Of a stretch of 64,000 bases of DNA, positions 6,428 through 64,000 are shown in pieces. Under the pieces are notes generated by a model that ran no database searches, had not been told where the DNA came from, and was given only the letters and a program-made list of their open reading frames with translations. Origin of the DNA: Argopecten irradians (taxonomy: Eukaryota; Mollusca; Bivalvia; Pectinida; Pectinidae); contig NC_091143.1 of NCBI RefSeq assembly GCF_041381155.1, positions 23,835,695 to 23,899,694 on the forward strand. Reading direction: 5' to 3'. The stretch's first letter is position 1, and each line of letters opens with the position of its first letter. The position numbers were made by a program, and so were the translations under genes.

Positions 6428-12968
<6,541 letters not shown>

Positions 12969-14332: not shown

Positions 14333-14502
14333 AAACCTAATATCACTACAAACGTGGATAAAATTTGTTAACTTTAATGTGCTACCAACACACTCCTTAC
14401 ATGTAAGTCTGTGATTTCATCGCATCCTACCGCGTTTGGCCCGAGTGATCACCTCCGAGTATACATGGCATCGAACATAGACCTTTGGACAGGCGAGGAA
14501 AT

Positions 14503-24851: not shown

Positions 24852-25028
24852 GTATGTAACTCTATTCATTTATCAGAATTTATTTTCCTGTAATATTTGA
24901 GCTACAAGTATAATTGACATGTAAAGGTTCCTATACAAAAACAGAATACAATACTAAATTTGAAAACTCAAATGACTTGATAATATTTTGTTTCATTCCT
25001 TATAGGTTTCATTCCTTATAGCGAGGCA

Positions 25029-28000: not shown

Positions 28001-31000
28001 TATCATGCTTTAAAATGCTTGAGGTGTGTAATATGGCGATCATTTTAAAATCATACTCGAAAGATCCCAGCTAAATCATTCAGTCTAACATCTGGACGCA
28101 TTATCGTATTGTATTGTTACATAGGCTGTACAATGGTACTTTGCCGGAAGTTTTCCGCCCGCCATTACTGGGATGATTGCCGGAAGTACAAGGTTACCGT
28201 TGTTCATTATATCGGGGAGCTCTTTCGGTATATACTAAAGGTTCCAGAGGTAAGCACTAACTATTATTTGAATTGAAAGCCTGCTTTCTGTGGGGTTTTT
28301 TTTGACGAAATTTCTGCCATCTCCCATCTCAATACACAACAATGCGAAAAATGTCACCCGCCAATGCGACAAAATCGCGCTTCAATACGAAAGATTTCGC
28401 GTACTGTTGCGTTGGCGCCTCTGAAATCATGCCACGATACTTTTCACTTCGATTTCAAAATTCACCTAAATGCACGGCTTTACTCCTTCAACTGTATAAT
28501 GATATCATGTTCCCATTATGACCATCTGACAATTTTGTAACTTCTTCCTTTTGCCTCCGTTTTATTGTTTTAGTATAATTTTGCATTTAGCAATAGTATC
28601 AAACAATTATAAACAGATAGATTTTGTCCACAGTCTCCATTGGACGGTGTCCACAACATTCGCGTTGCTATGGGTAACGGTCTGAGGATGGATATATGGA
28701 AGAAATTTCAGGACAGATTCAAGATCCCTGTCATTGTAGAACATTTCGGAGCTACCGAGGGAACATCAGTTACAATAAACCTTACTAATAAAGTGGGAGC
28801 CATCGGTAGATTATCACCATTCATGGTAAGATATTGGGCGTAACATCTTACGAATCCTTCCAGGGATGTCCCCTAGTCGTTGGTAAGATAATTAAGTAAT
28901 GTCTTACCCATCCATTTGTTGGGTAGGTGTTGTCTCCATACCAAAACACATTAGAGTACTAGACGACAGTTTTCACTCCCTGCAAAGGCTCTGTGTTTAA
29001 AGAATGGTTCGTTCGAATAATGTTGGTATAAGTTTATCCAGTTTGCTACCTTCTGGTAAACTTTGGCACTATCCTTTAGTAAGATAGCCAGATACATGTA
29101 GATACCCCTAGCATACGAAAGCATACACGATATAATCATAAAGTTATATGTGCCGTAATTTTCACACTCACGAATCAAGATGGGCTTTTAATATGTTATT
29201 CAGCACCAAAATTTACCAACTTTTTGAAAATTACAGTGCTTTCAATGCATAGGTTTTGATTTTACATGTACAAATAAGAGCTGAAATTGATTTTTGGCAG
29301 TACTGTCAAAAATCATTTATTTACATCAATAGTGAAGTGAAATGAGTACATACGGCGAGACCATGAAGCCAAATTGTGGTCTACAATTTCATTACACATT
29401 TTCACAATGTTTTTAGTAATTGCAAAGTGACTTCTGCAGGTATGTTTTCATTTAAACATATTTAAGGCATAAAAACAACAATTTTACAGTACAAAATTTC
29501 TGTGTTATAACTAACGTTTATAAGTCATCTGAAGCCATTTGAATGATTTTTACAGCTTTATTCATCAAACCTTATGGTTTTTAATAAATTAATGATGAAA
29601 AAATAACATTTCAAAATTATCGCCCAGTTACGGCACATATAACTTTAACTCAAACATGATAATGTAACAACATGGACATAGGATACACAACGAATTCATC
29701 TTTAAATGTCACTGTTACATAAGTCATTAAACAAAACAAAAATAACATTTTACGTGATGTGTCTAGACTGATTCCCTTCCCTTAGTTCTCTACTCTCCGC
29801 CAGGTTGCGCTCGGCTGGCTAGGGTCCTCAGTGAAGCGTACGCAAGGGAGGTAACTGAGGCGGGAACCAGTCTAATGATGTGTCGAATACATGATTGATA
29901 TGTATTCTTTACTCTTTCTTTTACAATAAGGACGAAATCATCATAAAAAAGCTTACAGATGAGCAAGGGTTGTATTCCTTGACTGGCTCGTTTTAACAAC
30001 AGTTGAATGCAAATAGATATGTTTGCATTTTCGTCATAGCGCAGTTTTTTCATTTCGTTTATTTATTAATTCACTTATCGGTTAGTCGGAATCTTGTGAG
30101 CATCAATCACTTGTTCAAGTTGATGACATCAGAAAATCCTTTTAATGGTGCCGTGAACCACGGTGTGGGAGGAGCAGGGGATTGTAGTAGGGAAGGGGAG
30201 TAGGCGGACGGTATGGGTCTATATAACGACCCAATGACAATCTGATCTATTGTCACAGTTTGAAGCCAATGCAACCATAATTTAATTAAAGTATAGCTAT
30301 GTAAAAATATAGCATGTTTTGATTCTCTTGTTCAGAGCTTGAAAGCATCATTCAATGATAAAACATGTTTTTGTGGTATATTTTATAGCGACTTGCATCT
30401 AAATACAAGCTGTATGTCCCAGTACGTGTGATACGGTACGACCGGGTCAAAGACGAACCCATCAGGGGGAAAGATGGCTTCTGTATCGACTGTGGCGCAG
30501 GTCTGTTATAAAGGGAATTCTGAGGATCTTGAATACATAGAAGGGATATTATGAGCGGGAAATGATTTTATAAATTTGAGAATGATAGAATTAAGTGTCT
30601 TTTTGCTCATAGTGATAAAAAATACTGACAGTTGAGGTACATTATATATCGAAATAGTTTGTCTATTTTTGGATGTTCGTCGTCAAAACAACGGTGTCGG
30701 TTGCCAAGACTTCCTTGAATTAAAGCAACGTGTCCACGGCTTTGTCCATATTACATGATATATATGTGTCATTCGTTTGCTCCCGCTTTGGAAAGGTCAT
30801 TGTTTTAGTGTGCCGCTTGCTGTAAAATAAATTGGGACTTTAAAGAAATTAATTTAAATCTAATATCCTGATGCGTAGATAAAAATGTAAGTATTTTCCA
30901 GGAAAGCACAGATCTCACAATATTTTAACAAATGATTTTTGTGGAATGTTCAATGACTTTACAGGTTTATAGAAGATGTACTCTGTTTACAGGCGAAGAA

Positions 31001-32231
31001 GGACTGATTATATCTGGAGTACCGGAGACAATAACACAATTCTATGTAGGATCCAAGTCTATGAACGAGAAAAAATTCCTTCGAGATGTTTTTGAAAAAG
31101 GCGATGCCTTCTTCAACTTTGGTGACATAGTATTCGTCGATAAAGATCACTATCTGTACTTTCGCGATCGTCTCGGGGACACATTTCGGTTTGTATTTCA
31201 TATCTTACAAACCATTTGTTGCTAGTAGTTCTGGTATCAAATTCAATGAAGTAAGGAGGGCTTTTACAGCTGTTGTTCTCGGTTGATTTGTAAATCACGT
31301 TACTGGGTAATGAAGTAGAATATAACATAGTTCGTTTTCCTATAATGTATCAGCCATCGGCTGTATTTATAGAATGCAATATTGAAATGGCTGTATCAGA
31401 AATTAGCGATGATAAAGGTATTTTGCTAGCACAGTTGTTATGTATTTGCATTGCCTATAGGAATTATTTTGTGGCAGTATTTCATTTTCCTAAATCCTAA
31501 TATTGTGACATGTCAAAACATCATAACAAGGTTGTTCTTCTATTTGCTATCACAGCTGGAAGAGTGAGAACGTGTCCACTCGAGAGGTGGCGGAGGTGCT
31601 GAGTACACTGACGTTTATACAGGATGTTAACGTGTACGGCGTAGAAGTACCGGGTTAGTAAAACACAATATAGACCGCAAAACTGTTACCTCACGGGAAG
31701 TACCCGGCGCTGTGATTCATGAAGTTCGCAGACCACATTTTCGAAATATAAATATTTTACCGTGTATCCTATTCTACATCATTTCTGGATATTTTTCGTA
31801 CATGTACATTCCAATAGCTTAGTAACTTTACTATCATATATTAAGATTTCTCAATAAAGATCGTGACCAGATAAACTGAATACACATGTAGCTTTGTTAA
31901 TCATGAGCTTAATATTGTAGATAATGACGGAAGAGCTGGGATGGCCGCCATACTTTTGAAAGAAGACAAAACTGTATCGCCGGAAATTCTACGACAAATC
32001 TACCGAAAGTGTGAAAAGTCACTTCCAAAGTATGCTAGACCGATATTTCTGCGGTTCCAGACTGATTTCGAGGTCACTCAAACAATGAAACATAGGAAAG
32101 TAGACCTTGTCAAAGAAGGTTACAACCCAGAAAATACAAGTGATCCTATGTTCTGTATGGACGTGAAAAACAAAACATACTCTTCTCTGGACAACTTGTC
32201 ATATCAGCAGGTCGTCAAATCGAGACTATAG
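25029..32231 (+). CDS. Very-long-chain acyl-CoA synthetase / fatty acid transport protein (SLC27A family)
   Basis: Ten exons: 25029-25398, 25727-25837, 26269-26487, 27391-27549, 28125-28249, 28634-28825, 30389-30500, 30993-31188, 31556-31653, 31921-32231. They total 1893 nt and encode 630 residues, the usual size for FATP/VLACS; every junction keeps frame (phases 1,1,1,1,0,0,1,2,1). The family activates long or very long fatty acids to acyl-CoA using ATP. Visible features: a hydrophobic N-terminal segment (about 9-30); AMP-binding motif [12 protein letters not shown] at 226-237; FGATEG at 366-371; GDTFRWKSENVS at 491-502, where the family usually has Gly for the Ser; and TQTMKHRK at 580-587. 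The C-terminus is Ser-Arg-Leu, a peroxisomal targeting (PTS1)-like tail; human SLC27A2 also ends in a PTS1-like tripeptide. Transcribed away from the SDR array. AATAAA at 32624-32629 is a likely polyadenylation signal. Confidence 0.92.
27612..27670 (+). repeat. tRNA-like SINE fragment in intron 4 of the acyl-CoA synthetase
   Basis: GCGAGGTGGCCGAGTGGTGA followed by AGTCTCGGCG and GAATCCCAT resembles the A-box half and end of a Ser/Leu-type tRNA, but the anticodon and T arms do not form a full tRNA. A decayed version occurs at the matching place in unit 2 (about 37590-37615), so the insertion predates the duplication. Confidence 0.5.
29140..29646. mobile_element. Non-autonomous TIR element (MITE), copy 1
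   Basis: About 507 bp bounded by inverted repeats AAAGTTATATGTGCCGTAA and its complement TTACGGCACATATAACTTT. There is no coding capacity. A palindrome around GGCAGTACTG lies inside. A second copy of the same family is at 52799-53317. It lies in intron 6 of the acyl-CoA synthetase, and the matching intron of the dead copy (near 41400-41530) lacks it. Confidence 0.85.
29764..29875. mobile_element. 112-bp MITE with 9-bp target duplication
   Basis: Inverted ends TAGACTGATTCCC and GGGAACCAGTCTA. It is flanked on both sides by TGATGTGTC (29755-29763 and 29876-29884). The dead copy has an empty site at about 41528-41545 with a single ACGTGATGTGATG. The interior is GC-rich and non-coding. Confidence 0.75.
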
Positions 32232-36235: not shown

Positions 36236-36514
36236 CGTCCATTGACGTTTGCCGCCCGAACTTCCTCCAGGATTCAACTCGTTATATTACGCATTGGAAA
36301 CGACACGTTTGCTTCCGGTTTGTAAGACTCTACGCTCTTACATGATTTTGATGTCTCCGGTGTGTTACATCTACACTTCCGGTACAACAGGTAAATATCG
36401 GAATGTCTTATGAAAAAAAACGTCTGATGGAATAAATATCAAATGTCTGATGAAAAAATTATGAGTGTTTGGAGAAACATATTTTAAATGACTGGTGAAA
36501 AATAGGAAATGTTT

Positions 36515-36965: not shown

Positions 36966-38370
36966 TCTGGGGAGACTAATAATAAATGACTGGTAATCAA
37001 GGCTCATAATTAAAGTAAGAAATGTCTAATGATTGAATAAACTTATGTCCTGATTACAAATTTATGATGACAAAATTAATAAATAATCTGAAGAAATAAA
37101 CTGTCAACAAATACCCTGAACGACTTACTGTGTGGTAGCTATTGGATTTTAAAAAATGGTTCCAGTTAAATCTCACGTGGTAAAAAGTCTTATATACGTC
37201 ATATTGTATTGTTTACATAGAAAAATGCTATTTGGAATATATTTGTTACAAATTTCTTCAATGTAGCTAAGAATTATGACGATATGGTAGATTTGAAACT
37301 ATTTTATTTATTCAATATTTACAACCTGCCTCTATTATTTTATTATTCAATATTTACAACAGCCATATGTAACCAAGCGAAGGCAATCGGATCATCAAAT
37401 GCTTGGGCTTGTTTCGATTTCAATTTCAATGACATTTCGTACGCTGTAACGCTACTTTATCATAGTGGGGAGACGACATTAGCACTCTTCAACACCATCG
37501 CAGTTGGTAAGCATAGTTGTTATTTATCAACAACGTGGCCCTCATACAAAGGCAAGACAAAATTTAAGTTTGTTTTAAGTATTCTGATAATAGATTAGGA
37601 TGCAAAGTGGTCGATGTTTTTTCTTCAGGTATTCTGGGTTACTGCCACCACTTTACCATTTTATTCCTTAAATGATCCTGGTTGTTAAAAGGACTAATCA
37701 AACCAATTGTTTTGAGTGAAGTATTTTATAGTTTGACAGTAGCCTCCTACATGCAGCAAGTCAAGACGTTTTTTTTTTGCATTTTCCTCAGTGTGTATAT
37801 CGTTATTCCTATTGATAATATGACAGAAGGCAAGGCCTTTAAAGGGCGCAGCCAGATGTTTTAATATGAACTATGCACGGCATCGGAAGAGCGAAGCTCT
37901 ACTCATTTAATCTATTTTTTATTTAATGTAGAAGACATAATTTAGAAATAAAAGGACACACTTTAAACTATAGAGGTATATGACCTAATGATTATCTAGC
38001 GTAAACTCAAACAAATACACTCAAAGATTCAGAATTTTCTGTGTCCATTCAAGACCTGGAGTGCCGCGTATGCGAATCCTATGATTTCGCTCCATTTGTT
38101 GACGTTATGTGACGTCATGATGCCTTGTGCTCATCTTCGCCTTGGTGGATATTTGACTGCATTCTATAGTTTTTAATTTTCAAAGTGTTATTATTCTTAT
38201 TTAAAAATTATAAAAAAAATGTTTAATTACTCCTGTTATGCATTTGCATTAGTTTAATATATATTTACTGGGGAGAGCAGTACCGGAGCAATGCACAACT
38301 TTCCCATCTGTATGAAAAAATGGCGGTCGCAAACTGAAGCTGTCAGTGTGTAGGATTGAATTTTGAAGAT

Positions 38371-38938: not shown

Positions 38939-40070
38939 AGGAAGTAAACAGAAAAAACAAAGGGTTTCAAATGAGATTAATATATTATGTGATGTATCTG
39001 ACAACAACAGTAAGTTAGAAAATGTCAAACATGGAAAATTACTTGGTGTTTGCATTGATGATACCCTTACTTGGGATAAACATGCCCAAGATGTTATAAA
39101 AAAGGTGAATTTTAAAATTCATCAATTATGTCGTATAAAGAAATGTTTACCAATTTCATCTAGAATAACGTTTTTATAATTGTTTCATTTTACCTTACCT
39201 TGATTATTGTTCAAATGTTTGGGGACATTGTAGCCAGCTGTACATAAGCAAACTTGAACGAATGCAAAAGAGAATACTTCGTATTATTTTAGACGAAGAT
39301 TATACCGTATCAGGTGAGGAACTTCTTTGTAAATTAAAATGGCTACCTTTTAGCAAAAGAGTAAAATATAATGAGTGTATTCTTATGTTTAAAGTTATTA
39401 ACAAATTATGTCCTAATTATTTAGATTGTAACAATTTAGTATCCAATATTCATGAAAAGAAGACTAGATCAGCCACTTCAGGGAAATACTTATTACCTAG
39501 ATTTAAAACAGAAAAATTTAAGAGCTCATTTAAGTATAGTGGACCATCACTATGGAATGATCTACCAGAAAGTGTTTCTAAAAATACAAAACTTTCCAAA
39601 TTCAAATACGAATGCAAAAAACACTTCCTACATGTATCCAATAATCACTGTTTCATTTGCTTCTTAATACCAATTTTTAGTAAACTCAGCACTTTTTGTT
39701 CTTTTATCGTCTTAATAAACTATCGTTAATTAATCAAACAAAATCAATTTTAATACATGCTATAATAGCATATATTCTGTCAATTTTTATTCTTTTGTCA
39801 TATTGGCATATATGTATATTAGACACTAATTCATTAAGATGTGTTTTTATTTTTCCATATATTTATGCACCATGAGCTTTATGAGTGCCTTTTTAATTTT
39901 TACTATTTTCTGTGATAATCTGACTGTGATATCCATTATAATAATACATGCAACGCTGTAATATGTATGGTCTATGATATATTCCATGTTGTAAATATTG
40001 TATATTTTTATGTCGACCACTTGGAAGACGAGTCTGTGACTCAAAGTGTTATCGACTCTAAATAAAGTCT
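38939..40070 (+). mobile_element. 5'-truncated LINE (non-LTR retrotransposon) with reverse transcriptase C-terminus
   Basis: Two coding segments carry the C-terminal part of a Jockey/CR1-like ORF2. Segment 38939-39179 has KLLGVCIDDTLTWDKH. Segment 39178-39729 has YLDYCSNVWGHC, ERMQKRILRI, LLCKLKWLPFSKR, GPSLWNDLP and SKFKYECKKHFL. They are in different frames, joined at a T run near 39172-39177, consistent with one single-base indel. The 5' part (endonuclease and reverse transcriptase fingers/palm) is missing, as is usual for 5'-truncated LINEs. The 3' end has AATAAAG just before the right target duplication and no long poly(A). It lies in intron 4 of the dead gene, same strand. Exact clade not assigned. 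Confidence 0.88.
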
Positions 40071-47484: not shown

Positions 47485-50040
47485 CTGGACACAAATATAG
47501 AGAAGATACAATATCATAATCGGTCAGTGAGATAATTCATACAAGAAAGTGGTGGGTGAGTCCGATATACATGTATCGTGTCACAAAGAAAATCCTACAG
47601 TCGTAAATAGAAGACTCACAAAGATAAATATGTATGTTTGATGTCAAAAGCTGCATATAGTGGTGGTTCAGTAACCATAGAGTCGGCTATCAGTTGCCTC
47701 CTCGGAGTAAACTGTGGGAGAAGATGTGTCTATTTGGTCCAACTAGTATGATGGTACTTTAGGCAGGAGTATCGCGCTAATAAAAGGAGACAATCCCTAT
47801 TGCAGTTTTTTCAAAGGACATACGCATCACCAGACATATATGACGGTCCGTCCAGTATATATTTAGCTTTTCGATATGACAACACAAATAAAATCATTCA
47901 GAAAAATTGATGTCGGTTTTCTGATAACGATCATACAAATGTATTCTGTGAATAAATATGCTGATAATGTTGTTACGATATGTACCACACTGTCGGAGAT
48001 TGGTAATCTAATTTAATTCCCTGTACTGTTCGTTTAATATCAGTCGTGCTAATCAACATTTGGGCGATACTTTGTTCGTGTTAATCCTTTTATGATTGAG
48101 ATTAGTATTTACTTTTTCTGTCTGCGTTCTATTCTTCACGATTAATTGTGATTGCTCAAAAATCTAAAATTATTTATCGGTAACCGCAATTCATGTAACA
48201 TCAAGTAACCATAAATCAATTGGTCAACATAAAATAAGGATAAAATCAATACAACCCATCTGATATCAAAACACTAATGCAATGCATATTCAAAACAAAA
48301 TATGTAAGAGATCAGGGGTAAATTCGCCGCGAGTGACATTTATTATTAGTAGTAGTATGAGTTGTTGTTAAATCACTGTTTTGTGTCGTAATCGGTGTGT
48401 TTGTGTGCCTTTAAAATTTTATAAATAAAATCGCCATTTTATGCAGAGTTATTTGTGCATTATACAACTGATATCGTAAACTTGAGAAGACAGTTTGGCT
48501 TTCTCATCACCCCAGCGAGGTAACTTCATTCACCAACCTACCTATACTTATATTTAGACATGCTTTCATCGTCACACATCTCAACAGGCATTAGGTAACT
48601 TTCACTTTTTTCACGTTCGTCAATGATACCACGTGCACATAGTTACGTCATTCATAATAAAATACAAATATATATTTCTCGAGGAGCTATAATTGAACAT
48701 TTCCACTATGTAATTAAGAATGATACACACGTCTGTAGCCTTGTCAGTACTGAAGATGACTTTGCAATGTGTAGATGTAGTGCAGTTAATTGACCAATCA
48801 GAGGTGTCAATATGCTTTTTTCCTTCGCCCTACGTCATACACCAATCACGTATGTCGTCTCATACATCAGACGATAGCAATATCCCACACGGAAACCATA
48901 AAATCCAGCCTTCGATGTCACTGTTGTAGCGTAGTGATCGAGTTATGGCGACAAGCCGACATATTTATATGTTTTACAGGACAGGGGACTACTGTATAAT
49001 TGAAAACTGATCGGTAATTTGTATATATATATATATATATAATGTTTAGACTTCCTACTTCTATATAAATATATATCTACGGTGCTCTAATATGTTTTGG
49101 GATGTTATAATGATAAGTTTGTGATATTCATTGATATTGTTTTGTTTCCTCTTCTTCCTTTAACAGATACCTATCAATGTTGATTTCATGTGGGTAAAAA
49201 CGATATACACGATTTCACAAAGCAAACTGTATAAATATAGCAGTTTGAAATATCCCCTAACGTATCCCTTTTCCCTAGAATACTACCATGTAGCCGGTCA
49301 TTTTCGAGGGGATGCCATTTTCGCGATTTCGCTATGATCGCTAAATTTAAATGTCAAGGAACGATTAAGTCAGATAAGCCCTGACAGCCAGAACGCGAAA
49401 CTTCAAAACAGCTCAATTAAATTTGATTTTTTTTTATTAAATAAATTATAAAGGGGAACATAATTATACAAAGAAATATCCTATTTAAGTCAAACACGAT
49501 ATCATTGTTAAACACATTTCATATTTTCCTAGAATCGCAACTTTGATTAAGACAATTTTAAACAAACAATGAGCTAATTTTTCTTTTGTTTGGTGGTTGA
49601 GAGAGAATATAATTGAAGGTTGGTCGTTTGAATTCACAATAGTTACCTATCTCTATTTAACCCTGCTTAGTATAAAGCTTTGTTACCATGTCAATATTTA
49701 TTACTATTCACTAAGCGTTTTTGTGATATCAAATGTTGCCAAAGAACAATTGATAAACACTAGGATTTGACACCATAAAGGTTTGACCCGATATTGACCT
49801 TGATTGTTTTCAATGTTTGGGTCGCTGATTTTTGTATCATTCTCACAGATTATTTCTTATTATGGCAAAACAGTTTTTAATCATGATCGCAAACTTTTTT
49901 GTGTCATTATAGAAGATTCTGTTTGTACTTTCATTGCAGACGTTATTACATCAGATTCGCAGATATGTTTGATATCATGAACACAGACTTTTTATATCAC
50001 GATCGCAGATTGTTTATATCACAGTCACAATTTTTTTTAG

Positions 50041-50490
50041 ATCATGATCGCAGATTTTTATATCATGATTTCGGATTTTTCGTATCATGATCGCAGATTT
50101 TTTATATCATGCCCGCTGTCTTTTTATATATTGATCGCAGATTTTTATATCATGATTTCGGATTTTTCGTATCATGATCGCAGATTTTTTATATCATGCC
50201 CGCTGTCTTTTTATATCATGATCGCAGATTTTTATATCATGATTTCGGATTTTTCGTATCATGATCGCAGATTTTTTATATCATGCCCGCTGTCTTTTTA
50301 TATCATGATCGCAGATTTTTATATGATGATTTCGGATTTTTCGTATCATGATCGCAGATTTTTTATATCATGCCCGCTGTCTTTTTATATCATGATCGCA
50401 GATTTTTATATCATGATTTCGGATTTTTCGTATCATGATCGCAGATTTTTTATATCATGCCCGCTGTCTTTTTATATCATGATCGTAGAT
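50041..50490. repeat. 87-bp minisatellite
   Basis: Five copies; the block GCCCGCTGTC starts at 50111, 50198, 50285, 50372 and 50459, exactly 87 bp apart. The unit is itself made of TATCATGATCGCAGATTTTT-like subrepeats. Since 87 is 3 x 29, an open frame (50044-50598) runs through it, but the translated 29-residue repeats are an artefact. Confidence 0.92.
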
Positions 50491-52032
50491 ATTTTATATG
50501 CCGGTATCGTGATGATTTTTACAATGATTGCCAGTAAGTTAAACGTCAATTTTACGTTTCTGGGTAAACATCCCTGTAACCATGGTAACGTGCATTGATG
50601 ATATATTTTTATAAGTGATTTAATTAAGATGTAACATCTTATCAGGTTCGAATCCCATGTTGTTCGATGGTTTTTTTTCTCCATGTCATCCTACTTTCCC
50701 CACAAACGAACCTGTCTCGTTTATAATTGACCTTGGTTGTTAAAAGGTCTTGAACCAATAAACTAAGCCCTACTCATACTTGTGCATGCATGTACAAAAC
50801 TTTCAGCTGCATCGATCTGAAATTGCTTGAGAAAAACTGTTTTACGATACGTCATGAAAAAGCATAGTCAGACAGATTTCGATCGCATTTGTCAAATACC
50901 ACTTTAAAGTCCATACTAATCTATTATAGTCCTTCAGTGCCGCATCGGACGACAAGTGTTCTACTTGTGGTGAGTTTGTGTAGGTGTACAAGTTTTGTGA
51001 TGCTTTAGATAAAATATCAAAAGAGCAGTTGTACATTGTAATGTGTGAATTGTCATTTAAATATTAAATACGATGCGTTGGAGGTTAATGTGATTGTGCC
51101 TATCGAACGAAACATCTTTTATCAATTTCTGTGATCGCATCTATCAATTCTATTTGGAACACTAAATCTTATATCATTGAATATTAGATATAATTCTCAG
51201 CTATTTGAAGTGTCAGTTGTATTGAATTCACCGCCCACATTTTTACCATTTTTTTTCATTTATACTTTGAGTATAGGTGCATACATTGTAATACACCATA
51301 GCATGTTTTTTTCGGAACCCGGTGTCGTTTTTAATGCGTCGATTTTGAGATAACGCAAATTGACGGTAAATTGTGGCTTACTAAAAACACTAAAAACCCC
51401 TGAACAACCGAATTCAATAATGTCATAAGATTGAATATGAACGAACTATCGCAAGCTGTACTCTAACAGAACTTATTAAATATACAAAAGGATGAAATAT
51501 TGATCTTATTAACCTTCTTATCATAAGCATACCTAAGGAATAATAAAGTTATGTTTTTCTACGAGACAGTTTGATATCATTTGACAGGTATTGCGTATGT
51601 TCCACGATAATTTGATGTAATGTGAGATTTCGTTAATATATTTTCAGTATTCAGTAGATTTGAAAAGGGAACTATTTTCTATCTCCCCACGCAATATGAT
51701 TAAATCTTAATCATATATTCTTTGGAAATATCGGTTGAGTGCATTTTGATTGTGCTAGATGTCAAAGTATTGTGATCCCTGCTGTAAGTTTGACCATTAA
51801 ACAGCGAGTTGAACTCCCTTAGCATTTCAAACATGACTGGTAGGAGACAGGCTTATAGGCTAGTATACCCATGGGGATACGTTGATTGATTATATTAATC
51901 ATATTGAGAACATTTCGTTGTTTCTAGTAAATTTTGTTCACTAACTATAATATAATAATTTTATGATGAATATATAGATGATATAAGCGCACCAATGCCA
52001 CATGCACCATGCATAATGTATCGGTATTGACA

Positions 52033-52040
52033 TTATATAG
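52033..52040 (+). promoter_or_regulatory. Candidate TATA box of the secreted peptide gene
   Basis: TTATATAG followed by a locally GC-richer stretch (52040-52270) in an AT-rich region. It lies about 210 nt before the predicted start codon at 52244. A short upstream open frame (ATG at 52091, stop at 52133-52135, 14 codons) would be in the leader if transcription starts about 30 nt after this box. Confidence 0.4.
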
Positions 52041-52243
52041 ACGCAGCCGGGATCAAACCCCACCCAGTATATCGCTCGTCGACTGCCGCTATGGAACAGA
52101 CATCGGACAACAGACAGCATCAGCTACTGGAGTAACCGAACTCCTTCTCAGACACGCGAGCTACACACCACGTCTTCCAAAGGACCATAGTCGTCCCAGA
52201 GGAATTCATTCTGATTCACAAACAAGAAAACACATTCAACACA

Positions 52244-55200
52244 ATGGGAACCAAGAATGCTGCACTTAAGGTAAGATCATATACCTTTATATTGTAACCT
52301 TTTGTCCTTTTGATAATTGTGCACCAAGAATGCTACTTCTGAAGGGATTTCTACCGCTATCTTACCTTTAAGTGTCACCTTGTCACACTTAAACTTTTTT
52401 GTCATAATAGGACAACTTAAGAGCTGCAATTAAAATAAAACAGGGTTTTATTTTCATTGTATGCTTTTTAAAAGCAATTTGACGTTTTTTTTCTCAATCG
52501 GAAAAAAGAGTCCATTCTCTTCTAGTATAAAGGGTTTTTATAAGCTAAACTGTTTTGTATATTGTCATAATTTTGATTGGCATTAGTTTAAATAGGCGGA
52601 TGGTCCAATGTACATGTATGAGTATTTTCAATTAGTGAAAATATGTTAGAAAACTACATAATATGAAGACATTTTCTTTAGAATATAAACAGAAAATATT
52701 TAATTTGTCAAATTGACATTTCTTTGTTCTAAACGATTTTGGAGTGTCGAAATGAAACTAAAATTGGAACATGTATTTCTGCCGAAAATATTATCTTTAA
52801 AGTTATATGTGCCGTATTTTTCATAGTCACGGATCAAGAAGAGCTTTTAATGTGTTATTCAACTCCAAAAGTTACCAACATTTTGAGAATTACAATACTT
52901 TCAATGTAAAGATTTAAATTTTACAAATACAAAAGAGAGCTGAAAATGATTTTTGGCAGTACTGCCAAAAATCATTATATCAACATCTTTAGTGTAGTGA
53001 AATGAGTTCATACGGTCAGACCATGAAGCCATATTATTGTCCACAATTTCATTGCACATTTTTACAGTATTATTAATAATTGTAAAGTGATTTCTGAAGG
53101 TATGTTTCCATCTAAACGTGTATAAGGAATAAAAACAAGAATTTCACAGTGCATAACCTATGTGTTCCAACTAACGTTTATAAGGCATTATATATGTTGT
53201 CTATCCATTTGAATGATTTTCACAGCTTTATTCATTAAAACTTATGGTTTTAAATAGATAATTAGAAAAAAAAATAGCATGTCCAAATTTTCGGCTAGTT
53301 ACGGCACATATAACTTTAAATAAATGCTTTATTGATATCCTATAATATCCTCAAATTTACAGAAAGTTATTAACATATTAATGGTTTTGAAACATAATAT
53401 CATTATCTATTCCCCGTATGGTTTTTATTCCATTATCGATGTGGTATATTAATACTATTATATCATTATCTATTCCCCGTATGGTTTTTATTCCATTATC
53501 GATGTGGTATTAATATAATATATCATTATCTATTCCCGTATGTTTTTCATTATCGATGTGGTATTATATAATATATCATTATCTATTCCCCGTATGGTTT
53601 TTATTCCATTATCGATGTGGTATTAATATAATATATCATTATCTATTCCCCGTATGGTTTTTATTCCATTATCGATGTGGTATTAATATATAATCATTAT
53701 CTATTCCTACGTGTGATATATCTATTCCCCGTATGGTTTTTATTCCATTATCGATGTGGTATTATAATATATCATTATCTATATGGTTTTTATCCATTAT
53801 CGATGTGTATTAATATATATATCCCCTATGGTTTTTATTCCATTATCTATTTCCCCGTATGGTTTTTATTCCATTATCGATTGGTATTAATATATATATC
53901 ATTATCTATTCCCGTATGGTTTTTATTCCATTATCGATGTGGTATTAATATAATATATCATTATCTATTCCCCGTATGGTTTTTATTCCATTATCGATGT
54001 GGTATTAATATAATATATCATTATCTATTCCCCGTATGGTTTTTATTCCATTATCGATGTGGTATTAATATAATATATCATTATCTATTCCCCGTATGGT
54101 TTTTATTCCATTATCGATGTGGTATTAATATAATATATCATTATCTATTCCCCGTATGGTTTTTATTCCATTATCGATGTGGTATTAATATAATATATCA
54201 TTATCTATTCCCCGTATGGTTTTTATTCCATTATCGATGTGGTATTAATATAATATATCATTATCTATTCCCCGTATGGTTTTTATTCCATTATCGATGT
54301 GGTATTAATATGTGTTAACAACTTTTAGTATTTATTTTTTGTTTTTGTTCAGTTCAGAATTAGATACTGTCGCTATGTCCTCGTGAAGGAATAGCATTTT
54401 AAACATTCTACATTTTAGAATGAAATTATATCGAACGCTTCCAAAGGCATTTTTTCCCTAAGATATTTACTCTTGATATATAAGGTATTTGAATGCGTGG
54501 AATAGAAAAGTAGTTTTGGGACTTTTTCATGTCATGAATCCGCTCTGTAAGAAGTGCTATGTCATCATCTTACAATTTTAGTTCACATTTGCAATATTTT
54601 AGTTAAATAAAACCCACAAGAACATGTTACATACGAAATGATATTGAAAGAATACCACATCATTTTAATACGAACTTTTGAAAAATCTTTTGCTGAAATG
54701 TACTGTGAAGTTTCGTTTTACTCTACTTGATTTCTGACACATGTTCTTTTCCCGATATAGCTTCTAAGCTAGAGGTAAAATGTTGTACTGACATTTTAAC
54801 TATAGACTGAAGCCCATTTGAAATATTAGCAATTTAAGACAGTGATCGTTCTATACGTCCCTGCCGTAATGCTGTGTACTTGCACTTTGATTAAATTTGA
54901 ACATGAACAAATATAAACTCCTTCACAATTATTTGGAATACCGTAAGTGGCTTTCCCATATCATGACACTAGTGTGTTTCCTTGAAGTTAATCGTATAGC
55001 GCTTAGTGAAAGTGTTAAAATAAGTTAAAGTTTAAAGTTGATTTTTGCCTGTCGGTGCTAACATCGAATTACTGCAGTTTTTGTTGAAGCCCCTGTCCTT
55101 ATTCTGCAGTCTTCTGTAATTTTAACACTGGCCGTCAGTAAGCCAAGAGAATTTAAATGTCGTTGCTAATTTGAGACCTAAATGGGACAGTTGCTTTACT

Positions 55201-58200
55201 CTTCGTAAGGAGTGTTTTCTGCTCCTCTTAACACGTCACGTCCTAACCTTACTTTTAATTACAAAACATGACAGACAAACCATGTAAACAAGCACAGTCT
55301 TACCGAAAGTTTTAATTTGTATATGGATAAATTGTCATAACAAATTAATGAATGAAGCTATCAATACAATATATACTTTATATCATTCTAACAAAGTGTT
55401 AAGTGATCCAAGCATCTAGAATCTAGAGTAAAATCATCACTAAGGGAGGCAATATCAGTGTTTTTACAAGCCTGACGTTTGCTGTTTCTTATAACTTAAC
55501 TTTGGGGCTTGTTTAGGTCTGCCCATCGTGTACGTACTTATTAGAACGATTAAAAAATTACTGAGATAGCATTTTGACACGTGCTGTCTATAGATAATGA
55601 TGATCAATAGAGAATAACTTTAATGCTATAGTAGTAAGTAGCAATACTTTTACTGAAGCCAGCAATGAAATGACTTAAAAAGCTAAAGTGTGCATATTTG
55701 TTAGGCCACACCAATTTGAAAAACAGTTCGTCGGGAATTCCCGTTCTAAAAATTGAAATTTCAGATAAATATATAAAAAAAAAATAATCTCGCTCCTGTT
55801 TTTCGAGTTCCAGATTTTATATTATTTTCTCATTTTGGTCTCACAAACGCTTGAATCGATAGGAAAAACGAAAGAGAAACAAAAATGGCGCGGGATGTAA
55901 ACATGCGTTCGTTTGCCGCTTTCTACACTGTAACTTTATAGCCGAAGTAAAGCAAACGGAAAGATGAAAAACTCTGTTGTGAATGTTAATTCACGAACAG
56001 GGGACGTCCCTTACATGGCAACAGAATGTTGTGAAGATTGATCTTGCAATGTTTTGCTAGAGCTTCCGTCGTTGATAGTGATTGACGCAATGACGGTATT
56101 ATTTTGGAAACATGATTAACATGCAATGCGTGCATGCATTCTTCGAAACCACCAGCTAAAGGTTGTATCGAAATAGCTTCACATCATATGGCGTTAATTG
56201 ACTATGGTGAGTTAAGTATGAAATTTACGTGATCGGAAAAAAGCGTCATGACTCTATTTTAGGCCTAGAATTTTGTAGGAAATCAACGTTTGATATTGTG
56301 ATGAACGCACGAATAAACAATTTCACTTCCTTCGAAGCTTTCTGGAGATAATTTAAAACGGATTTTTTTTCTGAAGTGTTATTTTTTTCTGAAGTGTTAA
56401 TTGTTTGTGTTATTTTTTATTAAAATATAATATCAAAAAATTGTAGACCATTAAAGGGTGTTTTTTCATAATGTTTTAATATTGTTGTGATATTGTCTCA
56501 GTAAAACGAAACTTATATGAGAAACATCAATTATTATTGAATCATATGTTGGTAAAAATATCAGAATCATTTTGAGTCCATGCATGGACTACTAGGATAA
56601 TGAAGCCTAAATTGGTTGTTACTATTTTTTTAAACTGAAACAACTTCAATTTCCAATGACTTGCATGATATTTATTTAATGGTGTTTAGCAATAAAACGT
56701 AAATTACCACCCCATCCTTAATATTTTTCCAAATTCATACTATTGAGATGCTATATTAAAACTAGTTATATTGACAATGTGAATGTTTTATGATGTGATC
56801 ATACAAAATCGACAAGAAGTTTATCAACTACCTTTAGGTTACATTTCTACTTCTATTAAAAGCTGGCAAAACATTTCAAGAACATAAACCAAACAATCAT
56901 CACTCAAATATAATGAACTGCGACATGTAAAATCCTACATATGTTAAATATAGCATTTTACAATCCGCTCTCTCCGATTTCTTCCAAAATGAGAAATAAA
57001 AATAAAATAAAAAATTCCCACTCTCTCGCTCCAATTTTTAATTTCAATTCCCGAAGAACTATTTTTCAAATTGGTGTGGCCTTATTTGCCAACTTTTGTT
57101 GCGAAATGGTGTAGTGGTTAAGCCGCTCACCTTCCACCCAGCCGGCCGGGGTTCGATCCCCGTAACGGACGTGAAAAGCTTAGGTGCCACCTGCCCGTTC
57201 ACGTGGGTTTTCTCCAGGCACTTCAATTTCCTCTCACACTAAGATCCCTCGTGCGCTTACATCCGGGCTATCGAGAGTAAGTTACATGTTTCTAAAATCG
57301 ATGTAAAATAAATAAAGTTATATTATTACATTTATATTATATTACTATTATATATTATATAATGTATATTATATATATATGTATGTATACATGTATATAT
57401 ATTATTTCTATGTAGAAATTAGTTGTTTCACAGTGTATATGCAAGAAATATAGGACAAGAGTATATTGTTATCGAGATTCCAGTTTTAATGAATCTTTAT
57501 TATACTTTTGTAACTGTCAGACTACATAGTATCAAATTAGTTTTAAACAAAACGCAGGAATGTCAGTTGGAGCAGCAATGACCTTTTAGTTTCCATGCAT
57601 GTGGAATTGACTCCAATTACATTAGGTTTTATAGCCGTTAATGAGTATTAATGGCCAACGAAAACATTACAACATCCTCACAAACGTGAACCGTGACGCT
57701 CCACGATAGCAACAACTTCTTGAATAACAATAAATTTACGCATTTTATTTCATTAAATAATGGAGTTGCTCTTTTGACTGTACAACCGATGTGAGTGAAA
57801 AGTGAGATTCCCTTGGGGATTATGTGATCCGAACTCATATACTGTGTATAATGTAAAATGAATCATTGCCACTGTAATTAAATTAACTGAAGCAATACGG
57901 TTATAGAGATAAGAAATGAAATTTTAGGATGCTTCCCCGTCATGATAAATTGACCTGCCCGTTTCATGTTTTACACGTTTGTCTTTAAACATATTAAATG
58001 AAATAATGCATGTGAGTTAATTGTATCGACAAAACCCACCAATAAAGGTTGTATTTAGTTTAATAACTATGCAATTTTATATTATATATATGAAATTTAT
58101 GTATCGAATAAAAGCGCCAATTGCAAAGAAAATTTTGTTCATTACTCAAGATTTCGAACGATTTCGTTTTCAAAATAATCATTATACTTTTGTATCACTT

Positions 58201-61200
58201 CAACTTAAAGATCAAATTAGTTAATTAAAAAAAGTTTACAATCTTGATTTGGAGCAGCATCAAAACCTTTTATATTTCTTTCATTGGAATTGACTCAAGT
58301 GTTTAATTTTAAATGGGGATTAATGAGTAATTAATTATACAACATCCTCACAAAGTGAATTACGCACCACGATAGTTTTGAATAACAAATTTTTTACGTG
58401 TTTTTTATTTCATGTAAATAATGATTACAATAAAACGTAAATTACCACCCCATCCTTAATATTTTTCCAAATTCATACTATTGAGATGCTATATTAAAAA
58501 CTAGTTATATTGACAATGTGAATGTTTTATGATGTGATCATACAAAATCGACAAGAAGTTTATCAACTACCTTTAGGTTACATTTCTACTTCTATTAAAA
58601 GCTAGCAAAACATTTCAAGAACATAAACCAAACAATCATCACTCAAATATAATGAACTGCGACATGTAAAATCCTACATATGTTAAAATATAGCATTTTA
58701 CAATCCGCTCTCTCCGATTTCTTCCAAAATGAGAAATAAAAATAAAATAAAAAATTCCCACTCTCTCGCTCCAATTTTTAATTTCAATTCCCGAAGAACT
58801 ATTTTTCAAATTGGTGTGGCCTTATTTGCCAACTTTTGTTGCGAAATGGTGTAGTGGTTAAGCCGCTCACCTTCCACCCAGCCGGCCGGGGTTCGATCCC
58901 CGTAACGGACGTGAAAAGCTTAGGTGCCACCTGCCCGTTCACGTGGGTTTTCTCCAGGCACTTCAATTTCCTCTCACACTAAGATCCCTCGTGCGCTTAC
59001 ATCCGGGCTATCGAGAGTAAGTTACATATTTCTAAAATCGATGTAAAATAAATAAAGTTATATTATTACATTTATATTATATTACTATTATATATTATAT
59101 AATGTATATTATATATATATGTATGTATACATGTATATATATTATTTCTATGTAGAAATTAGTTGTTTCACAGTGTATGTGCAAGAAATATAGGACAAGA
59201 GTATATTGTTATCGAGATTCCAGTTTTAATGAATCTTTATTATACTTTTGTAACTGTCAGACTACATAGTATCAAATTAGTTTTAAACAAAACGCAGGAA
59301 TGTCAGTTGGAGCAGCAATGACCTTTTAGTTTCCATGCATGTGGAATTGACTCCAATACATTAGGTTTTATAGCCGTTAATGAGTATTAATGGCCAACGA
59401 AAACATTACAACATCCTCACAAACGTGAACCGTGACGCTCCACGATAGCAACAACTTCTTGAATAACAATAAATTTACGCATTTTATTTCATTAAATAAT
59501 GGAGTTGCTCTTTTGACTGTACAACCGATGTGAGTGAAAAGTGAGATTCCCTTGGGGATTATGTGATCCGAACTCATATACTGTGTATAATGTAAAATGA
59601 ATCATTGCCACTGTAATTAAATTAACTGAAGCAATACGGTTATAGAGATAAGAAATGAAATTTTAGGAGAACGTCACTGGAAGCAAATGTGATGAATATT
59701 TAGAACAACAATAAATGTCCAGTAATTAAGTGGCGACTGTACAGGATGGCGCGAAATATAAAATTACATGGTAAATTATTGTAAATTAGTTGTAAAAAAT
59801 ATTGATGTTATATACATATAACATAGCCCCTCTCCCTCCCCCCTCTCTATTTCTCTCCTTCGCTCGCTCTCTTTTATCCTTCCTCCTCACTTTAATAATA
59901 TTTGATACTATTATCTTATATTTAAATCCATCTTATGATGTAAATGTTCAATACATTGTAAATTGTAATGGAGATTTTTTTTATATGTTTGATATAACAA
60001 ATCCGTTTGCTATTAATAACAATGAAATATGTTTAAACTTAAACTTATCAATACGTTAATGGTTTGCCAAATATAACCGAAAATAATTCTTCAATTTGTT
60101 ATTTTAAATCTATGTTTTCAACCCCTTATCCATCGGTATGCCTCCGTTTACGTCAGCGGTTCCTTGGTCGTGTCAGATACATCATGATACATGTAGTTAC
60201 CGAATAGAGTGCAGCACTCTGTAGTTTTATTGGTATCGACAAAACCCTATATAAAATCTATTTTTGTACGAAAGAAAATAAAAGTAACGAACATGGTTAA
60301 TTGTACACAACTCTGATTTCCAAGACTTCGTCTTCAATAATATAACACTATATAAACTTATATCATACTAATTTAATTATTGTTTGGAGTACAAATGTTT
60401 ATAAGGCAATAAAACTCTTTTGATTTTCTTTCATTTTTTTTTTTTTTTTTTTTTTACTTTTGTTTTACGTGTGTGTTTGTATGTGTATGTACGTATTTGT
60501 GTTCAAAACTTCGCTATCCTTTCTAAAAGATTCGATTGGTTTACATTAGTTGCCGTAATTTCCTGCGTATAACCCGTACCGGGGTATGGCAAGCAAAATC
60601 AGGCATTTTCTATGATTTTGTAAAATAAATTCCAGATTGCCTCGGCCCCACCGGAAGCTTTCCCGCGGGTTATACGATGAAGTATTCCATTAAAGTTTGT
60701 ACTATATATTATTAATGACACATTCGTTGATATGTTATAGTACTCTCGGAGAGGAGAACATCGGTTTATTTAAGGACATGTAGTAAACCCATTAGCATTT
60801 CATTTGTTTGAAAGTATATGTAAAAATGCTTTAATATATTAAGAGTGTATTTCAGCTACTGAGTGTTCACCTGCCATTTTGTGTGTCTTAAAAATAGCTT
60901 ACAAGGTATAGACTGCACATTTTTCCTATTTTCGTAATAATTTCCACAGATAACCCGCATCGACAGAAAGCCCGCATAAGACATCTTTTTATGTAAAAAA
61001 ATCGTATAGCCCGCGGGCAATACGCAGGATATTACGATACACAGACAACAGAACTATCCTATTCTATTCCTGTCTATTAAAACTTGACATCATCCTACTC
61101 ATCTTCTTTCTTAATTTCATTAATCATTTCTGTGCTTTAATTTTAAAATTTCCCCACATAATAATTTGTACGAGGTATTATACGAAATGTATCACTTTGT

Positions 61201-63816
61201 TTTAATTAGTATTAAAAACAATTTAGAATATCGAAAAAGAGAAATAATCAATATACGTTAAGTAAAATAGGCTTAAAAGATAGAGAGAAAATGTTATAGT
61301 TGATAAAGATGACTTAAGTCGTAAAAGCACAAATTTTTTGATATGTTGTAAAGTATCGTTCTACTAAAAACTAAACAGAAAATAAACAAAAATAGTGACA
61401 AAATAACACCCAGTCAAAGTGCCACTTGAACACGACTTTATCGAGGATTTGCTGTTGTTAAAGTGAAATATACAGCGAACCTATTTCAATTGATATTATA
61501 TTGGCCATATTTGTAAATACAGTAATGTAATAAACTAAATATCAAAATTAATCGTCTGATGTACAACTATGCGGAGACGGAATTATGATGGTTGGATGTA
61601 TTTCACCTAAGGCAGGATGATTGGTGCAGACATGGTCAATGTTAGAGATACCTCTGATAGCATCATTGTGTTATGGCACTCTGAAGGGAAGGCAGCCGCA
61701 ACATAATTGATGCGCGGAAATTTATGATACAGTTTAAGTACTTGTCGTCTGCTTCGAAGAACTTGTTGATTTAATTTTATTAAAAATTATATAAAATTAT
61801 ATTAAATTACGAACATACAGTGTAAGCCTTCATATCATCTATATCATTTCGTTTAAAGGCCACCTACTTTTCTGAAAAAAATAAAGCTACTTAAAACAAC
61901 GTAAGAAAATATGTATCAATTGCCTAAGATGAGGTTACAATACCAAATATATACAAAATGCAATCCATGATCTATATCAAAGGTGAAGTTTAGCCGTTTG
62001 GCGCATTGATAGTCAACTAACGCGCGATAATTAGGACGACGGCGGGAAAAATAATATGTCTCGCGGTATGAATATTAACATTTAATTCATTTTAATGATA
62101 GTGTTCAGAAGGTGATGATGGATATAGTATTAATGGTAAGCTAATTACGTTTGCATCTCCACAAAGTTATCAATCCCGTTTAACATTCCCATTATAAAAA
62201 ATAAAAGCCGCTTTGGAAAGGAAGTTGGTCTTTGATGAAAATTGCTTAACATAGGTATGGAGTAATGTGTCATTTGGTAGATAAATAAGACAAAGCCAGC
62301 CACATGAACGATGCTAAGATACACGGTGTCAGTCGAATTAACATTCCGTATCTTATTGTTAAATGAAGCGTGACGTTTAGCGCACTTTCTCCCACGTTAT
62401 GGATCGTATTCAGCGGTAATAACTGGGGTATATTTTGTTAATCTAAATTATCATTAATAATGCCAAACATTAAAAATTGTAGGAGACATTCACCCTACGT
62501 AAATGGCGATTCCAGCTCGTTGACAATTAAGGAAATCCCACTTACTACTTACACCCGGTAACATTAATGTCAATTAACACCCTCGGTGGATTTATAAATT
62601 ATGCATAGTTTCCATGGATTTGTAAACATAAAGCAGTGGCACTGTAATAACCTCTATAGGACTTTATTATAATTAGAATAAACACATTTCTTTCAATGAT
62701 GAGGTTTGAGAAAGGTCAAACTTGAAATTGACCCAGAATAGTAGAGCAGATATGATCTAATTAAACGCCTACTGATCTAATGGAAAATGTGACAACCTGT
62801 GTATTCTTATGTATCGACCATGCACGTGTTACTTTTTAAATATGTATCACAGGACCATGTATCGACCATGCTATCGTAATTCAATTTTACGAATGAACAA
62901 TCTTCAGATTACGATTATTAAAATGATTCGTTTTTATTTTAGATATCAGTTGTATGTCTTATGTTGACCAACGCTTACGTCATCGAAGCCAGTTTTAAGC
63001 GTTCAATCTGGAACAGCAGGATTGTTGGTCTGAAAAGGTCGCTGGACAACATTGATCAGGACCCTCATAGAAAGAGCCTGGGCTATCTATTCCGAGGATG
63101 GCCTCCACGATATAACAGGAAGAGGAATAATTATAGTGAGTTTCATAACTAACCATGCACTCATTTGGTACAAAATATAATACCTATACATTGGTCATGT
63201 CACCAACTGAACTTTCGGTTAAACCATGCAGAGAGATTGACGAAACGCATAGAAAATGATGTATCCATATTTGGAATAAAAAGAGAAAAGTAAAAACTGT
63301 GTTCAATTTGTTGAAATATATTTCTATTGTTAATATAATTCTATCAAAGACCGACCGAGCGTTTGATATTGTAAATCTGCGACTAACATACTATCCTATT
63401 CGAAAAGTCATACATCTGTACATACTATCAGACGTGAGTTATAAGATAGTTCATACCCAATAAACCCCAAACATCTAAGTTATTTAACATTTATAGTAGT
63501 TCTACCATGACCTGACTATCAAATGTTAAAATTAATATTCACCTCATGATGTGATAGATCATTACGAATATTAATGTCGTACACTTAAATTTGTCAATGA
63601 TATACGTATTTTAATAACTGCTCACCTTATAAGTAATGATAGATAAAACAATAACTGTCAATCACGATCTTGTTTTAGGAACACCGCCACCGCCAGAGAC
63701 TGTGCTTGATGGCAACCAAATCGTACGATACGGTAGTATAATTAACATATTTATTATCATTTTTGATTTACGCATCTGACGTAGAAAAGATATTGCTTTT
63801 CTCTGTAGGGTCCTGA
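52244..63816 (+). CDS. Predicted small secreted peptide precursor, 93 aa, unrecognised
   Basis: Four exons: 52244-52270, 62943-63135, 63679-63732, 63809-63816; 282 nt, with all phases matching (0, 1, 1). The ATG has a strong context (ACA before, G after) and the first donor is GTAAGA. Exon 1 (MGTKNAALK) joined to exon 2 (ISVVCLMLTNAYVIEA) makes a typical signal peptide with a basic start, a hydrophobic core and likely cleavage near A25; neither exon alone would. The rest is basic, with dibasic sites at K28-R29, K40-R41, R52-K53 and R68-K69-R70, which would release pieces such as SIWNSRIVGL and SLGYLFRGWPPRYN. A TPPPPE stretch follows, and the end is NQIVRYGS. There are no cysteines after the signal. 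AATAAA at 63907-63912 fits as polyadenylation signal. Intron 1 is 10.7 kb. It could be a neuropeptide or other secreted basic peptide; I know no family match. The last 8-nt exon is the weakest part. Confidence 0.5.
52799..53317. mobile_element. Non-autonomous TIR element (MITE), copy 2
   Basis: Same family as 29140-29646, aligning along its full length. The TIR is AAAGTTATATGTGCCGTA, with the exact complement at the right end. It lies in intron 1 of the predicted secreted peptide gene. Confidence 0.85.
53393..54311. repeat. 60-bp satellite-like tandem array
   Basis: The unit contains TCTATTCCCCGTATGGTTTT and CCATTATCGATGTGGTATTA. The last six units (53941-54300) are identical and exactly 60 bp long; earlier units carry indels and changes. 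The open frame 53677-54318 (213 aa, 20-residue repeats) is an artefact of the period being a multiple of 3. Confidence 0.95.
54330..55700. other. Intronic stretch without recognised features
   Basis: AT-rich sequence inside the predicted 10.7-kb intron; no exon, RNA gene or clear repeat recognised on either strand. Confidence 0.4.
55704..57081. mobile_element. 1.4-kb TIR element, PIF/Harbinger-like by its TTA flanks
   Basis: The left end GGCCACACCAATTTGAAAAA and the right end TTTTTCAAATTGGTGTGGCC are inverted repeats; similarity extends inward for over 100 bp (left to about 55840, right from about 56985). TTA lies directly outside both ends (55701-55703 and 57082-57084), and a TWA target duplication is typical of PIF/Harbinger elements. 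No transposase frame seen, so it is non-autonomous. The right arm is included in the 1.24-kb duplication. Confidence 0.7.
56690..57929. repeat. 1.24-kb direct repeat, copy 1
   Basis: Nearly identical to 58428-59668 (offset 1738-1740 bp); I count only about six differences by eye. It includes the right arm of the TIR element, the SINE and about 600 bp of 3' sequence. Confidence 0.93.
57100..57320 (+). repeat. tRNA-derived SINE, copy 1
   Basis: The tRNA-like head has A-box TGGTGTAGTGGTTAAGC (from 57107) and B-box GGTTCGATCCC (57150-57160) within a CGGGG..CCCCG stem. The body has ACGTGGGTTTTCTCCAGGCA and CAATTTCCTCTCACACTAAG, the conserved core seen in bivalve SINEs. An AT-rich tail follows. 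The head is not a working tRNA: no proper anticodon stem or acceptor pairing. Confidence 0.85.
58180..58427. repeat. Diverged third partial copy of the 1.24-kb unit
   Basis: Matches 57500-57760 in order with many deletions: TATACTTTTGTA, ATCAAATTAGTT, TTGGAGCAGCA, GGAATTGACTC, TACAACATCCTCACAAA, CACGATAG, TTGAATAACAA. It lies between the two near-identical copies. Confidence 0.7.
58428..59668. repeat. 1.24-kb direct repeat, copy 2
   Basis: See copy 1. Both end at ATTTTAGGA and then diverge abruptly. Confidence 0.93.
58840..59060 (+). repeat. tRNA-derived SINE, copy 2
   Basis: Same SINE as 57100-57320, carried by the duplication rather than inserted separately: its flanks are also identical. 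Confidence 0.85.
60554..61036. mobile_element. MITE-like element of about 480 bp
   Basis: The left end CGTAATTTCCTGCGTATAAC and the right end CAATACGCAGGATATTACG are inverted repeats. Inside are further CCCGCGGG and GCGGGTTATACGAT symmetric blocks. No coding capacity. Confidence 0.7.
61040..62942. other. Intronic stretch before exon 2 of the secreted peptide gene
   Basis: AT-rich. Its one recognisable part is 62019-62235, a diverged copy of the sequence surrounding the LINE insertion site (38829-38938 joined to 40122-40210) without the LINE. Nothing else supported. Confidence 0.5.
62019..62235 (+). repeat. Unoccupied relative of the LINE insertion site
   Basis: CGCG.TAA.TA.GACGAC..GGAAAAATAA, ATTAACATT, GATGATG, AGTATTAA.GGTAAGCTAAT and ACATTCCCATTA.AAAA..AAAGCCG line up with the left and right flanks of the LINE as one uninterrupted segment. 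Probably an older dispersed repeat present at both places. Confidence 0.65.
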
Positions 63817-63906
63817 CCCTTATTAAAGCATCTCAATGGAAAACCGGTGAATAACACACAAATCATGTGATATTTTTTTGTTTGCTAGAGGAAATATCAC
63901 TAAGTT

Positions 63907-63912
63907 AATAAA
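63907..63912 (+). terminator. Candidate polyadenylation signal of the secreted peptide gene
   Basis: AATAAA about 90 nt after the predicted stop at 63814-63816. Confidence 0.35.
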
Positions 63913-64000
63913 GATTTTAAAGCAGATATTATTAATTTACCAAAAATACATAAATAAGATAAAATTTGTTTGCAAACATTTGTAAAAATCCGCTACGCGG

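Follow-up and report, generated by a model that had tools for sequence, protein, structure and literature searches.

A candidate scallop gene for a small secreted peptide precursor, divided by a 10.7-kb first intron

Four small segments on the forward strand of a scallop chromosome raise the question of whether they constitute a gene and, if they do, of what its product might be. The window, that is, the whole stretch of DNA analysed here, comprises 64,000 nucleotides of Argopecten irradians (contig NC_091143.1, positions 23,835,695 to 23,899,694), and positions above 64000 continue its numbering past its end. The regulatory myosin light chain encoded in this genome fits such an origin: 130 of its 145 residues fall within exact matches of at least six to the striated-muscle chain of scallop, the other 15 being residues 1-14 and 97, and all 32 residues of the last exon are those of PDB chain 1scm_B, from A. 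irradians. Argopecten irradians or a very close relative is thus the likely source. Of the other markers, COX1 was not found, two myosin-head loci match myosin I best and a third region reads like myosin V. An initial annotation had joined the four segments into a possible undescribed secreted precursor with the layout of a neuropeptide prohormone. Our analysis retains exons 1-3 as the best model of what is probably a genuine gene, whose product would be a small, basic and secreted precursor, and treats exon 4 as one of several candidate endings. The explanation that we favour, with a probability of roughly 0.6, is a single-copy scallop gene whose product would be cut at dibasic sites into peptides with a signalling role, a neuropeptide or peptide hormone being the likeliest. 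This explanation builds on what can be observed directly, namely the sequence and its frame, the coding signal, a strong exon 1 and the finding of no second copy. The features discussed below are collected in Table 1.

Table 1. Coordinates of the features of the candidate locus and of its downstream neighbour, in window numbering unless stated otherwise.
Feature	Position	Strand	Remarks
Putative promoter and 5' untranslated region	52034-52243	+	TATATAG at 52034-52040
Upstream ORF	from ATG 52091	+	14 codons, inside the putative 5' untranslated region
Exon 1	52244-52270	+	ATG and signal-peptide n-region, MGTKNAALK; phase-0 donor AAG/GTAAGA
Intron 1	52271-62942	+	about 10.7 kb, GC 0.31
Exon 2	62943-63135	+	ISVVCLML...GWPPRYNRKRNNY, core of the signal peptide and bulk of the precursor; entered in phase 0, left in phase 1
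Exon 3	63679-63732	+	C-terminal stretch, RTPPPPETVLDGNQIVRY and first base of next codon; entered and left in phase 1
Claimed exon 4	63809-63816	+	G/GG TCC TGA, reading GS and stop; eight coding bases; one of several candidate endings
Polyadenylation hexamer	63907-63912	+	AATAAA; fits the GS or the read-through ending
Neighbour gene	contig 23903793-23909868 (window 68099-74174)	+	ten predicted exons, 4.1-10.2 kb past the window end

Gene model and coding evidence

As had been proposed, the four segments join in phase into a frame of 93 codons closed by a TGA stop, with GT/AG at all intron edges and MGTKNAALKISVVCLMLTNAYVIEASFKRSIWNSRIVGLKRSLDNIDQDPHRKSLGYLFRGWPPRYNRKRNNYRTPPPPETVLDGNQIVRYGS as the predicted product; exons 1-3 by themselves join in frame into a core of 91 residues. 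The donor of exon 1 is strong, its score being reached by 0.1% of 3543 GT sites under the generic matrices, untrained on the host genome, that provide all donor and acceptor scores given here. Among the 516 phase-0 ATG..GT segments between 33.0 and 62.9 kb, exon 1 alone reaches its donor score of 6.4 or its donor-plus-coding score of 12.6. Read in the claimed frame, exon 2 carries 13.5 bits of coding signal, against -6.8 to -29.8 bits and two to five stops in each of the five others; its splice sites are ordinary (acceptor 1.9, with 5.4% of decoys as high; donor 1.9, with 4.4%). Exon 3 is supported by its frame, by its composition, with a GC content of 0.56 as against 0.30 and 0.26 in the flanking introns, and by a coding score of 7.3 bits; its acceptor scores 2.0 and its donor a weak -0.7, a value that 13% of decoys reach. 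The coding signal averages 0.30 bits per codon over the whole reading frame and 0.21 over exon 2 alone, while 33 segments of kinase and myosin genes from the host genome give 0.28 (SD 0.09). The coding model was trained on 33 segments (18,852 bases) out of 42 kinase and myosin loci, nine loci having been excluded, seven of them because their matches contained stops.

It might be argued that there is no gene here, and that chance open frames happen to lie beside splice-like sites. The unremarkable sites of exon 2 (about 5% of decoys score as high) and the weak donor of exon 3 are consistent with such a view, as are the results of wider scans. Exon 2 ranks 12 among long internal-exon candidates on both strands of 93.5 kb, at a site cut-off of 1.5 that was lowered knowingly (a cut-off of 2 misses exon 2), and exon 3 is absent from the 30 best short candidates of an unconstrained short-exon scan. 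Eight of the 11 candidates that outrank exon 2 are recognisable genes or repeats, identified in part through Pfam and in part by reading their translations. The 11 include three short-chain dehydrogenase readings, three fatty-acid-transport/acyl-CoA ligase readings and two readings, overlapping each other, of a single minus-strand ORF that lies downstream and has no known family, the remainder being two copies of one repeat and an ORF at 45333 of undefined nature. Against a chance origin, exon 1 is an outlier among its 516 competitors, the coding bias of exon 2 is confined to a single frame and the GC content of exons 1-3 (0.44-0.56) stands well apart from that of the introns (0.26-0.31). Hence, we regard the absence of a gene as unlikely.

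Several other features were observed in and near the window. Repeated short-chain dehydrogenase exons occupy the minus strand from about 900 to 18600 (e.g. 2591-2724, 11021-11160 and 17405-17543), suggesting tandem gene copies. A gene of the fatty-acid-transport/acyl-CoA ligase type (AMP-binding, Pfam) lies on the plus strand at 24984-32231, and ligase-like exon pieces at 36.2-37.6 kb (36271-36390 and 37221-37598) look like a partial duplicate of a gene of this type. At 39169-39726, also on the plus strand, the translation of a 186-residue open frame reads like the C-terminal portion of the reverse transcriptase ORF of a non-LTR retrotransposon; the frame has no Pfam match. Downstream, a minus-strand open frame of 250 residues with charged segments of the IDR type (L004:8788-9537) has the top coding score in the scan and, likewise, no Pfam match.

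The region upstream of exon 1 had been credited with a TATA-like box and a rise in GC content. The latter is borne out, since the GC content of the 200 bases at 52041-52240 is 0.505, a value reached by 0.34% of 200-base windows. The former is weak evidence, because TATATA(A/G) occurs 29 times on the plus strand of the window. Intron 1 has repeats of its own, among them a minisatellite at 53397-54311 (14.9 copies of a 60-base unit) and two copies, 1.74 kb apart, of a repeat ORF with identical translation (RPGFDPRNGREKLRC..., 57142-57276 and 58882-59016). A further minisatellite lies at 49874-50499 (6.2 copies of an 87-base unit). Close to the start of intron 1, at 52323-52334, accaagaatgct is a second occurrence of twelve bases of exon 1.

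Alternative endings and the downstream neighbour

The component of the initial annotation that was not confirmed is its terminal exon, and with it the NQIVRYGS C-terminus. In spite of a good acceptor at 63809 (4.4, reached by 0.6% of decoys), the splice that yields this end is uncertain, because the donor of exon 3 is weak and other endings fit as well. Between 63.74 and 66.5 kb, ten acceptors are preceded by a fair pyrimidine tract; the tails that they would add are 2 to 20 residues long and include GS-stop (63809), EEISLS-stop (63889) and DLLGYY-stop (64794, with an AATAAA at 64858). The acceptor of the first scores above those of the other two (2.8 for 64794 and 2.0 for 63889), and if the third splice is omitted the frame of exon 3 reads on as YGSIINIFIIIFDLRI up to a stop. 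The polyadenylation hexamer reported at the 3' end is indeed present. A search with 63733-64000 returned 41 matches outside the locus, mostly over about 63959-64000 and the longest starting at about 63912; a dispersed repeat covers about 63959-64000. No other copy of the DNA around 64794 was found in the genome. We rate the ending at 63809 as the likeliest, rather than as an established one.

The choice of ending bears on amidation. The RYGS of the favoured splice form lacks a clean amidation signal, its Gly being followed by Ser. With the better acceptors, RYG followed by a basic residue requires a donor three bases further on, at 63736, which scores -6.5 and gives tails of YGRS-stop with 63809 and YGKEISLS-stop with 63889. 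With the donor at 63733, an amidation signal is given by just two of the poorer acceptors that pass the filter, and the ending through the exon at 64794 reads YD in place of YG.

An outcome that had been named in advance as contrary to the proposal, that these exons are part of a larger protein, was also tested and is disfavoured. Exons 1-3 would in that event form the N-terminus of a larger secreted structural protein rich in Asn, Gln, Gly and Trp and extending to about 74.2 kb, with exon 4 being spurious. The idea has some appeal, given that exon 3 ends in phase 1, that nine downstream exons on the plus strand (68979-74174) are every one entered in phase 1, that joining exons 1-3 to them leaves a single open frame of 411 residues and that exon 4, the proposed partner of exon 3, has just eight coding bases. 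This fusion model was dropped as first choice upon the finding of an exon at 68099-68150 that encodes a typical signal peptide of its own (MKLHIAIPIVCLACLGQ) and has a phase-1 donor. In a first-exon scan of 63.74-68.95 kb it is the only one of seven phase-1 candidates to pass all filters, and the same filter applied to 52 kb of control sequence returned two overlapping candidates with a common donor. The neighbour has phase-1 introns throughout (all nine) and is complete as a predicted secreted protein of 337 residues, so that a fused product would have one signal peptide too many. Two neighbouring genes are thus likelier than one, because the neighbour has a signal-peptide exon of its own, and we consider a single fused gene quite improbable.

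The neighbour is itself of some interest. After its signal region it is 20% Asn, 16% Gln, 16% Gly and 9% Trp, which suggests an extracellular protein with a structural or adhesive role. Neither the joined 411-residue model nor the first 93 residues of the neighbour protein had a match in Pfam, and the joined model had none in PDB. Five of its exons, used as a 145-residue query, found no other copy in the genome, and strings from the protein found no match in the running text of 5.39 million open papers.

The predicted precursor and its processing

The N-terminus of the joined product is a plausible signal peptide as judged by hydropathy and the small-residue rule, with a hydropathy peak of 2.35 (11 residues from residue 7) and candidate cleavage after A20 or A25. 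The notion that splicing of exon 1 to exon 2 creates this signal peptide holds insofar as the joined N-terminus is plausible, but the hydrophobic core comes mostly from exon 2, with exon 1 contributing the start and the n-region. The sole cysteine of the precursor sits in the signal region. The four basic runs that had been read as cleavage sites are present, but their number is weakly above that obtained by shuffling (mean 2.2, P=0.09), because about 21% of residues 26-93 are Arg or Lys. The basic pairs partly reflect this composition. KR pairs, on the other hand, number three against 0.59 expected from residue shuffling (P=0.008). The convertase-type sites SFKR, LKR, HRK and NRKR bound short predicted peptides.

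A basic composition of this kind is also what one would look for in a secreted cationic defence peptide or in a matrix peptide of shell or mantle, whose basic pairs would follow from its abundance of Arg. Residues 26-93 have a pI of 10.95 and a charge of about +8.5, the precursor includes a stretch rich in Pro, Arg and Trp, its gene adjoins that of a secreted protein rich in Asn, Gln and Trp, and the weak excess of dibasic runs agrees with such an origin. The grouping of KR, commoner than in shuffled sequences, argues against it, as does the acidic SLDNIDQDPH, which separates the basic pieces in a prohormone-like manner, and no Pfam family of any kind was matched. A defence or matrix role, the main rival to a peptide prohormone, is on balance rather unlikely.

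The favoured reading, a precursor of signalling peptides, can be laid out as a sequence of steps, for which splicing, secretion, cleavage and signalling are what we infer. Transcription would start near 52.06 kb, and the mRNA would contain exons 1, 2 and 3 together with one short terminal exon, or else a read-through end. Its product would be the 91-residue core plus a short tail; the two likeliest endings would bring it to 93 or 97 residues, and others to as many as 111. The N-terminal 20-25 residues would direct it to the secretory pathway, where proprotein convertases may cut at the four sites listed above and release SIWNSRIVGL, SLDNIDQDPH, SLGYLFRGWPPRYN and a C-terminal peptide beginning NNYRTPPPPETVLDGNQIVRY. 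The calculated average masses of the first three are 1144.3, 1153.2 and 1725.9, respectively. At least one of the four peptides would presumably act as a signal, a neuropeptide or a peptide hormone being the likeliest kind. The initial characterization as a neuropeptide-like secreted precursor is sustained as regards a small, intron-split, predicted secreted and basic product; it is less so for the neuropeptide role, which the layout makes plausible and to which the favoured form contributes no clean amidation signal.

Searches for relatives returned the locus itself. Searches of the host genome with the protein (E-value cut-off 10) and with the spliced cDNA (cut-off 1) each found this locus alone among the best candidates scored, and no paralogue, retrocopy or transposon copy was detected. 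The 93-residue model had nothing significant in Pfam or PDB (best PDB E-value 0.13), and no folded domain was recognised in either. Viral and prokaryote contig collections contained no relative, as expected for an animal gene, and the peptide strings had no match in the running text of the same open papers. It is possible, though less likely than not, that the gene founds a family of signalling peptides restricted to scallops or bivalves and unmatched in the libraries searched, with the SLGYLFRGWPPRYN peptide, the NNYRTPPPPETVLDGNQIVRY peptide or both as its active product. Secreted peptides confined to one lineage are difficult to annotate, being short, split by introns and devoid of domains. 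If expressed and processed, the precursor would represent a new candidate signal in scallops, and its gene would illustrate how a first intron of 10.7 kb can keep such a gene hidden. Scallops are farmed animals, and how neuroendocrine signals govern their growth and spawning is a question of practical interest.

Comparison with known peptide families

Invertebrate neuropeptide prohormones have a signal peptide followed by short pieces bounded by dibasic sites, lack domains and carry an intron in the signal-peptide region. The predicted scallop precursor is like them in all these respects, and differs in having no repeated peptide copies and, in its favoured form, no amidation signal. Resemblance to the NKY precursor is more limited. 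Searched against the host genome with three residues added, the NKY peptide of Patinopecten yessoensis finds a gene elsewhere (C4) at 79% identity over 38 of 39 letters. Both precursors have dibasic sites and, towards the C-terminus, an RY with Gly after it, but the NKY locus is a separate one, its mature peptide (KVFWQPLGFVPASMRM...GFRYGR-stop) has no visible similarity to those predicted here and it ends in RYGR as opposed to RYGS.

A closer parallel is found among the bivalve peptides of the LRYamide type. The general layout seen here is shared by bivalve neuropeptide precursors in the account of PMC8398477, in which the LXRYamide precursor of the oyster Crassostrea gigas is described as yielding an amidated peptide of 23 residues with LXRYamide at the C-terminus and, potentially, four further peptides; its authors report that they found no homologue in other molluscs. 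LRYamide in P. yessoensis and LXRYamide in C. gigas are reported only from bivalves (PMC8398477, PMC5996578), and expression of the LRYamide gene in P. yessoensis is given as high in mantle (PMC8398477, PMC5996578, PMC6425005). It could thus be asked whether the precursor is the scallop orthologue of these, a special case of the reading favoured above, with which its odds overlap. In the annotated form its last piece has 23 residues, ends in IVRY-G-S and is preceded by four pieces, in keeping with the oyster precursor as outlined in PMC8398477. Nonetheless, exon 3 ends in NQIVRY, which is neither LXRY nor LRY, and its Gly is followed by Ser instead of a basic residue or a stop, unless the much weaker donor at 63736 is used. 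Moreover, an LRY end would be expected to persist between the two scallops, because the NKY peptide keeps its GFRYG end at 79% identity, an expectation drawn from that one family. Orthology is for these reasons improbable. Compared by description (PMC8398477, PMC5996578, PMC6425005), the LRYamide and LXRYamide precursors are nonetheless the nearest in layout to the predicted scallop precursor: the latter differs in its IVRY end and its lack of a clean amidation signal, and resembles them in comprising several peptides, of which the C-terminal one is about 20 residues long and ends in hydrophobic-X-Arg-Tyr.
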